Below are positions 4,850 to 10,768 of a stretch of DNA of 35,207 bases, piece after piece. Under the pieces are notes generated by a model, which did not search any database, was not told where the DNA came from, and saw nothing but the letters and a program-made list of their open reading frames with translations. The stretch is from SAR202 cluster bacterium. Lineage in GTDB: Bacteria; Chloroflexota; Dehalococcoidia; Lucifugimonadales; GCA-2712585. The first letter of the stretch is position 1; each line of letters starts with the position of its first letter. Location of the stretch: assembly GCA_016872285.1 (NCBI GenBank), contig VGZZ01000027.1:1-35207 (forward strand), in the 5' to 3' direction. The translations under genes and the position numbers were made by a program.

Positions 4850-5473
4850 TTGCCCTTGAAAAATAAGGAAAAGCTAATAGTAGGTGTCCTCGCCGTTCAG
4901 GGGGACTTCGCCGAGCACATCGCCATTCTTAAAAAGATAGGCGTCGAGACGCGGGAAGTCCGCCTCCCCAAAGACCTGGACGGCGTGGACGCAGTCATTA
5001 TCCCCGGCGGCGAGAGCACCACCCTTCGCAAGCTCTTCGACCTCTACGGACTGACCGACGCCGTGACCAGGGTCGCCAAGAAGGGGACGCCCATCTGGGG
5101 CACCTGCGCAGGCATGATTATGCTGGCCGACAGGCTGACCGACGACCGTCCAGAGCCTCTCCATTTAATGGACATCACCGTTACTCGAAACGCCTTCGGA
5201 CGGCAGGTGGACAGCTTTGAGGCGGACATAGATTTCCCCAAGGTCGGCAAGAAGCCTTTCAGGGCTGTCTTTATAAGAGCGCCCGCAATTGATAAAGTAG
5301 AAGAAGGGGTTGAGATTCTCGGAAAGCTCTCAGATGGCTCTCCGGTGGCCCTCCAGCAGGGAAACCTTCTGGTGACCTCCTTCCATCCTGAGCTGACTGA
5401 GGACACTCGGTTCCACAAATTTTTCTTGAGCTTGGTTAAACCGGCTAATGGAAGAAATAGATATAAGGACTAA
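4850..5473 (+). CDS. pdxT: Pyridoxal 5'-phosphate synthase glutaminase, PdxT subunit
   Basis: Class I glutamine amidotransferase that releases ammonia and channels it to PdxS. Counting from the TTG at 4850: the PGGESTT motif at 52-58, nucleophile Cys86 in GTCAGMIMLA, and His179/Glu181 in SFHPEL complete the triad. The start is uncertain. The TTGs at 4850 and 4856 have no ribosome-binding site. An ATA at 4877 lies 7 nt after AAGGA (4865-4869) and would give 198 residues beginning just before GVLAVQG, as in characterised homologues (about 196 residues). The coordinates use the conventional TTG. The 3' end overlaps the next gene by 26 nt. Confidence 0.93.
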   Translation: MPLKNKEKLIVGVLAVQGDFAEHIAILKKIGVETREVRLPKDLDGVDAVIIPGGESTTLRKLFDLYGLTDAVTRVAKKGTPIWGTCAGMIMLADRLTDDRPEPLHLMDITVTRNAFGRQVDSFEADIDFPKVGKKPFRAVFIRAPAIDKVEEGVEILGKLSDGSPVALQQGNLLVTSFHPELTEDTRFHKFFLSLVKPANGRNRYKD

Positions 5474-7805: not shown

Positions 7806-7826
7806 TCCGCCATGAATATCGGCGGA
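7806..7826 (+). other. Small hairpin just before the hydrolase ribosome-binding site
   Basis: TCCGCC (7806-7811) and GGCGGA (7821-7826) form a 6-bp stem with a 9-nt loop, ending 1 nt before the GGAGGTGA ribosome-binding site (7828-7835). No T-run follows, so it is unlikely to be a terminator. It could protect or expose the ribosome-binding site. Confidence 0.35.
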
Positions 7827-7839
7827 TGGAGGTGAAGCC

Positions 7840-8688
7840 ATAGCGCACGCCCGTGTAAACGGTATCAATCTCTATTACGAACTTAAGGGGGCTTCAGGCG
7901 AGCCGCTGGTCCTGGTCCACGGCTCCTGGGGCAACTCCAACAACTGGGACATGGTCTTCGGCCCGCTGTCCGAGTCCTTTCGTGTCCTTACCTATGACCG
8001 CCGCGGGCATAGCCGCAGCGAACGGCCAGCGGGTCAGGGAAGCGTCCATGAGGACATCGCAGACCTGGCGGCACTGGTTGAGCATCTTGGCTTAGCGCCA
8101 GCCCATATCGCCGGGAACTCCTTCGGCGCTTCGATTGTCCTGGGATGTGCGGCTAAGAATCCAGGGTTGTTCCGCTCACTTATCGCGCACGAGCCGCCGC
8201 TCTTCTCAGTTATTGATGGGGAGCCAAAGTTTCGGGATATGCTGCGAGAGACCAAGGCTCGGATAGGAAGTGTCATCGAGCGGCTAAAGCAGGGCGATAT
8301 GGCAGGCGGCGCAGAACAGTTTGTGAACACAGTGGCATTCGGTCCGGGGGCATGGGAACGTCTACCCGCAGTGACAAAAGAAACGTTTATAAGTAATGCA
8401 GTTACCTTCCTGGACGAGGCGAATGACCCGGATGCGTTGTCTATTGACCTCAAGGGCCTGTCCAAGTTCACGCGCCCAGAGCTCATTTCCCATGGCGACA
8501 GCAGCCCGCCCTTCTTCTCGCCCATTGCCGCTGGAATCGCCAAATCGATCCCAGGCAGCACTCAAAAGACCATAACAGGTGCGGGCCACGTCCCCCATCT
8601 GAGTCACCCAACGGATTACGTGGCGATGGTCAAAGGGTTTGTTCAGTCAGTGAGAGCGAAGGGTAAACCAGGCGCGAGACGGCGCTGA
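7840..8688 (+). CDS. Alpha/beta hydrolase with apparent ATA start
   Basis: Alpha/beta-hydrolase-fold enzyme of the AB_hydrolase_1 type; substrate unknown. The conserved fold begins at VNGINLYYELKG and continues through the oxyanion-hole motif LVHGSWGNSNNWD, DRRGHSRSERP, the nucleophile elbow GNSFGA, a late acid in HGDSSPP and the catalytic His in GAGHVPHLSHP. No ATG, GTG or TTG exists in this frame between the upstream in-frame TGA (7813-7815) and the ATG at 7951, and starting at 7951 would delete the oxyanion-hole motif. An ATA at 7840 sits 7 nt after GGAGG (7828-7832) and gives a normal 282-residue protein. I therefore call 7840 the start. A TTGACA at 7759 with TAGAAT 20 nt downstream is a weak promoter candidate. 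Convergent with sucD (4 nt between stops). Confidence 0.82.
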   Translation: MAHARVNGINLYYELKGASGEPLVLVHGSWGNSNNWDMVFGPLSESFRVLTYDRRGHSRSERPAGQGSVHEDIADLAALVEHLGLAPAHIAGNSFGASIVLGCAAKNPGLFRSLIAHEPPLFSVIDGEPKFRDMLRETKARIGSVIERLKQGDMAGGAEQFVNTVAFGPGAWERLPAVTKETFISNAVTFLDEANDPDALSIDLKGLSKFTRPELISHGDSSPPFFSPIAAGIAKSIPGSTQKTITGAGHVPHLSHPTDYVAMVKGFVQSVRAKGKPGARRR

Positions 8689-9577: not shown

Positions 9578-10768
9578 TCAATCCTCACTCAGCTCGTTAG
9601 CTGAGCGCAACGTTGGTAAAGCTCTCTTAAGCTGGGCCTCAAGTTCCAGCAAAGTGGTGGCGAAGAAGACATCCAGGCCGGACTGCGCCAGGATTTCGCA
9701 GGCCTGCTCCACGTTGGTGCCCTGAAGGCGGGCGATGATGGGAAGGCTCGCGCTACGCTCCTGGCAGGCGCGGACAACGCCCCGCGCGACGATGTCGCAT
9801 CGCAGGATGCCGCCGAAGATGTTGATGAGGATACCCTTCACGCCCGAGTCCGAAAGCATAATGTTGACGGCCTTGACCACTTTCTCGTCGTCAGCGCCGC
9901 CGCCCACGTCCAGGAAGTTGGCCGGCGTCGCGCCTACCCGCCGCACCAGGTCCATAGTCGCCATGGCCAGGCCAGCGCCGTTGACCAGGCAGCCAACGGA
10001 GCCCTCCAGCTTCACGAAGGCCACCTTGGCCTCGTGGGCCTGGGCCTCGGAGGGGTCTTCCTGGGCCGGGTCGGCCAGGGCGGCCAGGTCAGGGTGGCGG
10101 AAAAGGGCGTCGTCCTCCAGGTCCACCTTGGCGTCGAGGGCGATGACCTTGCCGTCGGAGGTCACGGCCAGGGGGTTAACCTCCACCAGCGTGCAGTCCA
10201 ATTCCATGAACATGCGATAGATAGCGGTAAGCATAGAACCTGCCGCCTTGGCCTGGTCGCCGCTGAGGCCCAGGGCGCGGGCGACGCGGCGGGCCTGGAA
10301 GGGCTGGAGGCCGATGGCGATATCCACGCCCTCGCGATATATCTTCTCGGGCTGCTTGGCGGACACCTCCTCGATGTCCATGCCGCCGGCGGCGCTGGCG
10401 ATGAACACCGGCCCCTGGGCGGAGCGGTCTACCGTCAAAGCCAGGTACAGCTCTTTGGCTACCGAGGCGGTTTCTTCGACGAGGACCTTGTGGACAGGGA
10501 CACCTTCCTTGCCCGTCTGGTGGGTGACGAGGCGGGAACCGATGAGCTTGCTGGCGTAATCGGAGGCGTCCTGAGGCGAGTTAACAAGCCGCACGCCGCC
10601 GGCCTTCCCTCGACCGCCAGCGTACACCTGCGCTTTAACCACGGCCTTGCCGCCCAGGTCTCGAGTCGCCGCTTCGGCCTCGTTGGGGGTGGAGGCGACG
10701 TGACCGCGGGGCGTCGGAGCGCCGTATTTGGCCAGCAGGGCCTTGGACTGGTATTCATGAATCTTGAT
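9578..10768 (-). CDS. sucC: Succinyl-CoA ligase, beta subunit, with apparent ATC start
   Basis: Beta subunit with an ATP-grasp domain that binds nucleotide and succinate. Seen: VVKAQVYAGGRGKAGGV, MFMELDCTLVEVNPL, ALDAKVDLEDDALFRHP, and the C-terminal FLDVGGGADDEKV with GILINIFGGILRCDIVA. The conserved family N-terminus MKIHEYQ(A/S)K is present as KIHEYQSKALLAKYGAPTPRG, but the codon in the Met position is ATC (10768-10766), with AGGA 9 nt upstream. The next in-frame conventional start, a GTG at 10642, would remove about 40 conserved residues. The promoter at 10798-10826 puts the transcript start near 10791, so an upstream start is excluded. With the ATC start the protein is 396 residues, the usual length. 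Confidence 0.93.
   Translation of the reverse strand: MKIHEYQSKALLAKYGAPTPRGHVASTPNEAEAATRDLGGKAVVKAQVYAGGRGKAGGVRLVNSPQDASDYASKLIGSRLVTHQTGKEGVPVHKVLVEETASVAKELYLALTVDRSAQGPVFIASAAGGMDIEEVSAKQPEKIYREGVDIAIGLQPFQARRVARALGLSGDQAKAAGSMLTAIYRMFMELDCTLVEVNPLAVTSDGKVIALDAKVDLEDDALFRHPDLAALADPAQEDPSEAQAHEAKVAFVKLEGSVGCLVNGAGLAMATMDLVRRVGATPANFLDVGGGADDEKVVKAVNIMLSDSGVKGILINIFGGILRCDIVARGVVRACQERSASLPIIARLQGTNVEQACEILAQSGLDVFFATTLLELEAQLKRALPTLRSANELSED

Follow-up and report, generated by a model that had tools for sequence, protein, structure and literature searches.

An alpha/beta hydrolase gene of a SAR202 cluster bacterium is probably intact, with an initiator that has mutated from ATG to ATA and from which it is translated, at position 7840 of the window (the whole 35,207-nucleotide stretch of contig VGZZ01000027.1 analysed here). 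By comparison with orthologues, the hydrolase carries an AUH codon where they have their initiator, and the same is true of sucC, encoding the succinyl-CoA ligase beta subunit. Weak starts would be used gene by gene and not under a relaxed initiation code: the sequences support AUH use at particular genes, not a lineage-wide habit.

The hydrolase frame opens without a canonical start codon

The hydrolase locus comprises the following features.

7840..8688 (+): gene for an alpha/beta hydrolase, 282 codons and a stop, with ATA 7840-7842 as proposed start; Pfam and NCBIfam matches; the ATA stands in the ATG column of orthologues L033 and L034
7828..7832 (+): Shine-Dalgarno sequence GGAGG (in GGAGGTGA, 7828-7835), 7 nt before ATA 7840; GGAGGTGA is equally spaced from the ATG in L033
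7813..7815 (+): in-frame TGA closing the hydrolase frame upstream, read from the sequence
7951..7953 (+): ATG, the first in-frame canonical start, codon 38 of the hydrolase; would yield a truncated protein
7826..7843 (+): minicistron ATG GAG GTG AAG CCA TAG, five codons, its stop overlapping the ATA start (ATAG); read from the sequence

From the TGA at 7813-7815, the hydrolase frame runs ATA TCG GCG GAT GGA GGT GAA GCC ATA(7840) GCG CAC GCC CGT GTA AAC GGT. As the original prediction stated, there is no in-frame ATG, GTG or TTG between this TGA and the ATG at 7951, and ATA 7840 follows GGAGG by 7 nt. These three canonical codons make up 6.3% of codons in the source genome, and a 37-codon stretch devoid of them has a chance probability of ~0.09; in the window, 19 matches to the pattern GGAGG-N4-9-ATH stand against an expectation of 20.7, which is the chance level. 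Since neither the missing canonical codon nor the pairing of a Shine-Dalgarno sequence with ATH exceeds chance, the case for the hydrolase start stands on homology.

The surroundings of the start were also searched. A simple consensus scan found no promoter or terminator near the hydrolase, RNA structure around the start was no greater than in shuffled sequence (z -0.67), and no Rfam family was matched within the window.

Distant orthologues place the initiator at ATA 7840

We searched one genome per species across ~85,000 species and recognised two hydrolase orthologues, both from other phyla: L033, 54% identical, in a MAG labelled Spirochaetaceae, and L034, 46% identical, in a MAG labelled Candidatus Aeolococcus gillhamiae. 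The initiator ATG of each aligns to the same column as ATA 7840, and ATA 7840 therefore occupies the initiator position in this sequence alignment and is derived in the source genome. One orthologue reads GGAGGTGAcaacATG against GGAGGTGAagccATA in the hydrolase gene here, and the leader is kept in L033, with GGAGGTGACAAC-ATG-GCA against GGAGGTGAAGCC-ATA-GCG. The original prediction had named ATG at 7840 in relatives as an outcome that would speak against it; taken literally this was found, but only in these distant orthologues of other phyla.

While L033 and L034 locate the hydrolase start, they give no means of telling whether the base was truly substituted or miscalled. AUH was seen at the hydrolase start in no relative, the orthologues carrying ATG. 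In 60 relatives drawn from the same family and order, the best-matching hydrolases reached no more than 34% identity over their length, so that no close relative informs on the reality of the base or on the time of the change. We consider it improbable that the true start is ATG and that base 7842 reflects a mistake of sequencing or assembly, or else a variant of a minority strain that entered the consensus. A single G-to-A change would be enough, both orthologues have ATG, the genus is represented in the comparison by one genome, and the ATA itself is seen in a single draft assembly of 83 contigs. Consensus error rates of such assemblies are ~1e-5 to 1e-6 per base. The errors estimated for this genome nevertheless amount to well under one affected start codon genome-wide. 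A few real AUH starts per genome are, on the other hand, usual, as in Listeria, where <0.3% of core genes have non-canonical or flexible starts (PMC13068326).

The first 37 residues belong to the hydrolase domain

The frame that begins at ATA 7840 matches Pfam Abhydrolase_6 (5e-21) and Abhydrolase_1 (1e-20). Residues invariant across the three aligned orthologues include the HG oxyanion motif (H27-G28), the GNSFG nucleophile elbow with S94, D220 and H250; with its Ser-acid-His triad, nucleophile elbow, HG oxyanion motif and canonical fold, the protein falls within the alpha/beta hydrolase superfamily. The predicted conserved N-terminus with an oxyanion-hole motif ahead of 7951 was thereby borne out, and the 37 N-terminal residues are conserved in the three-sequence alignment. 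A structure model built on this alignment (mean pLDDT 74) places three strands before Met38 (residues 2-6, 9-16 and 21-26, beta1-beta3) together with the oxyanion HG loop.

The best structure matches are esterases and lactonases (e.g., 4uhc, 5egn, 2xua), at TM ~0.7 and ~20% identity. The hydrolase shares fold and catalytic residues with these esterases and enol-lactonases but is only ~20% identical to them, and against the 3-oxoadipate enol-lactonase PcaD (TIGR02427) it scores 81.8 bits, well under the curated cut-off of 255.85; its substrate is not predictable from them.

We consider it very unlikely that translation of the hydrolase begins elsewhere, either at ATG 7951, which would give a shortened protein, or through re-initiation behind the minicistron that overlaps the ATA. 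A purely mechanical ORF call picks ATG 7951, the earliest canonical codon, but in the structure model a start there removes the three strands and the oxyanion-hole loop, and the first 22-24 Pfam profile positions are missing from the shortened protein, at a cost of ~17-19 bits. The minicistron ATGGAGGTGAAGCCATAG (7826-7843) is present in the sequence and encloses the hydrolase Shine-Dalgarno sequence; it may be a candidate re-initiation context for the ATA and could equally be due to chance. Re-initiation would, however, itself use ATA, and orthologue L033 has no minicistron upstream of its hydrolase. The hydrolase frame is intact with all its catalytic residues, the Shine-Dalgarno sequence is strong and well spaced, and no canonical codon precedes codon 38.

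sucC has a probable AUH start in the family genomes that carry it

The sucC gene of the window offers the following features.

9578..10768 (-): sucC, for the beta subunit of succinyl-CoA ligase, with ATC 10766-10768 as proposed start; residue 2 matches position 1 of the ATP-grasp_2 profile
10640..10642 (-): GTG, codon 43, the first in-frame canonical codon of sucC; a start there costs 42 ATP-grasp_2 positions, ~49 bits
10798..10803 (-): TAGAAT, a -10-like box upstream of sucC; family variants TTAGAAT, CTAGAAT and TTAAAAT; a resemblance to consensus only

The N-terminus encoded in the window reads IKIHEYQSK where MKIHEYQ is expected, with ATC at the methionine position. This codon is ATC or ATA in all six family genomes with sucC (G000, G006, G001, G004, G005 and G002, from three genera), a seventh, incomplete genome having been left out for want of a sucC match. 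It stands behind GGGAGGT or AGAGGT in five of the six, and the -10-like box recurs at a similar distance across the family. An N-terminal extension is excluded in G006 and G001 by a TAG standing in frame one codon upstream.

We then searched 147 genomes of the order for the sucC motif, which 56 of them contain (50 outside the family and 6 inside). The start is ATH in 6/6 genomes of the family versus NTG in 50/50 outside it (Fisher P ~3e-8, although phylogenetically this is one switch). The ATC start of sucC had been part of the original prediction, and the evidence for it, ATC or ATA in 6/6 family genomes and 0/50 elsewhere in the order, is stronger than was claimed. In a class-wide sample, sucC has ATH in 3/393 genomes (the source and two from other families) versus ATG, GTG or TTG in 51/119. 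At the initiator position of sucC, the two from other families of the class, L178 (G372) and L179 (G067), read ATA, in L179 behind GGGAGG; these are apparently separate switches.

On sequence grounds, sucC, a neighbour of the hydrolase gene, gives the strongest evidence for AUH starts and is the more interesting of the two; such conservation of AUH is unusual. The change from NTG to AUH in this gene of central metabolism is clean and specific to the lineage, and every family genome in which the gene is found has kept it. For neither sucC nor the hydrolase is any canonical in-frame start able to give the full domain. Gene finders limited to ATG, GTG and TTG shorten the hydrolase by 37 residues and sucC by 42 and so remove what is essential to each domain, as had been anticipated for ordinary gene finders.

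infC provides a precedent within the family

In all six family genomes carrying infC the start is ATA, each time after GGAGG (for G006, from its leader). Because of this 6/6 pattern, AUA is expected to function as a start in the family, if infC serves as a guide. A census of an infC-type motif over the order gave matches in family members only; the motif is too strict and uninformative on infC outside the family.

Such conservation bears on whether the hydrolase might have lost its start codon and be silenced or decaying as a young pseudogene, which we regard as unlikely. ATA initiates much less efficiently than ATG, and the hydrolase shows no conservation within the family, where the best matches in the 60 relatives stay at or below 34% identity; it may be dispensable. 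However, its 282-codon frame, catalytic residues and Shine-Dalgarno sequence are all intact, and infC and sucC retain AUH starts in the family.

A further gene had been proposed, with less certainty, to start with ATA.

4877..5473 (+): pdxT counted from ATA 4877; residue 2 aligned with position 2 of the TIGR03800 profile; start uncertain

Here the evidence is weak. TTG codons stand in the pdxT frame at 4850 and 4856, and the gene mostly begins with GTG or ATG a little further upstream in relatives, so that pdxT is ambiguous as a third AUH gene.

General use of AUH starts finds no support in the scans

The original prediction held that AUA and AUC starts may be used in this lineage. This stands for sucC and infC (6/6 each) and, by homology, for the hydrolase position, but not as general use. 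We scanned about one third of the genome for AUH starts: 0.84 Mb of the source genome were covered, along with 0.8-1.2 Mb of the family member G004 and 0.4 Mb of G009, which belongs to another family. The scans overlook any gene that happens to have a canonical codon close by and give a lower bound. The suggested scan for AUH after strong ribosome-binding sites gave no excess over chance: in genes lacking a canonical start led by a Shine-Dalgarno sequence, ATA, ATC and ATT were not enriched behind such sequences (632 gene models of the source genome and 579 of G004). An orthologue-anchored scan likewise showed no AUH excess in the source genome or in G004; for G000 it returned 104 ATG, 17 GTG and 6 TTG cells, with no convincing start among its few ATH cells. 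Within this coverage, genome-wide AUH use was rejected on the Shine-Dalgarno-anchored enrichment, a coding-potential scan for genes without canonical starts and the homology scans, which left isolated cases only.

We also rejected an altered initiator tRNA, there being one ordinary tRNA-fMet(CAU) among three CAU tRNAs, and a missing or grossly changed IF3, as infC is present and alignable over its full length. A lineage with a relaxed initiation system, in which AUA, AUC and AUU serve widely as starts, is accordingly hard to credit: while sucC and infC have AUH in every family genome carrying them, and the hydrolase probably has it here, the lack of enrichment in both sets of gene models, the start codons recovered in G000 and the ordinary IF3 and tRNA-fMet all speak against it.

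Proposed mechanism and known systems

If the hydrolase is translated from ATA 7840, GGAGGTGA would position 30S subunits at this codon, where tRNA-fMet(CAU) would form two Watson-Crick pairs with AUA and a third-position mismatch. By analogy with other species, IF3 would discard most AUA initiation complexes on the hydrolase mRNA, and the protein would be made at a lowered level, through weak AUA initiation aided by a strong Shine-Dalgarno sequence. This AUH mode would be common to the hydrolase, infC (AUA, the known autoregulated case) and sucC (AUC or AUA, conserved on the family branch).

Autoregulation of IF3 through the infC start is an established precedent (PMC5472188). Like the hydrolase, infC (AUU, AUC or AUA) has an AUH initiator behind a strong Shine-Dalgarno sequence, with AUA in 6/6 genomes of the family; unlike it, infC feeds back on its own product, whereas no link to IF3 is known for the hydrolase, whose AUA occurs in one genome. 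In Listeria, the infC (ATT) and rnhC (ATC) starts are confirmed by experiment, and rsbW with an ATA start has reduced yet detectable expression (PMC13068326). The ATG-to-ATA/ATT variants of rsbW include the one third-base change to ATA seen in the hydrolase, with translation reduced but real, and rnhC has a fixed AUC start; the rsbW and rnhC starts are shown experimentally, while that of the hydrolase is deduced from sequence only. The sucC case resembles sigR of Streptomyces (GTC or GTT), which also has a lineage-conserved non-canonical start, a strong conserved Shine-Dalgarno sequence and third-base drift among non-canonical codons. Its GTC start is repressed by IF3 (PMC5472188). It differs in that GTC is not an AUH codon and in that a regulatory role is shown in sigR, not in sucC.

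We speculate, as a rather unlikely extension, that a few genes besides infC (sucC family-wide, the hydrolase in the source species) are under IF3-sensitive translation through selected AUH starts, which would couple flux through the succinyl-CoA synthetase step of the TCA cycle to the ratio of IF3 to ribosomes; the AUH of sucC would have arisen on the family branch and drifted between AUA and AUC only, across three genera. The sucC case makes selection of weak starts for regulation directly testable.

Other unusual codons in the scanned genomes

The scans yielded several further observations. In G000, a fabF-like beta-ketoacyl-ACP synthase gene (L056; C4 58672-59916, +) has a candidate CTG start directly after a stop codon and behind TTTGGAGG, its next canonical codon being codon 85, and a gene for a CoxM-like FAD-binding subunit (L104; C8 42889-43776, -) has an apparent CTG start behind AAGGAGG. 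An LLM-class (F420-type) oxidoreductase gene of the same genome (L057; C5 18151-19221, -) reads GTC AAG TTT in the usual place of MKF, a possible GTC start as in Streptomyces sigR. Finally, peroxiredoxin-like genes from two families (L114, G000 C3, 70103; L161, G009 C1, 75323) read TGA in frame where the catalytic cysteine usually stands (FTGG*TNQ and AFF*TYC), an arrangement suggestive of selenocysteine.
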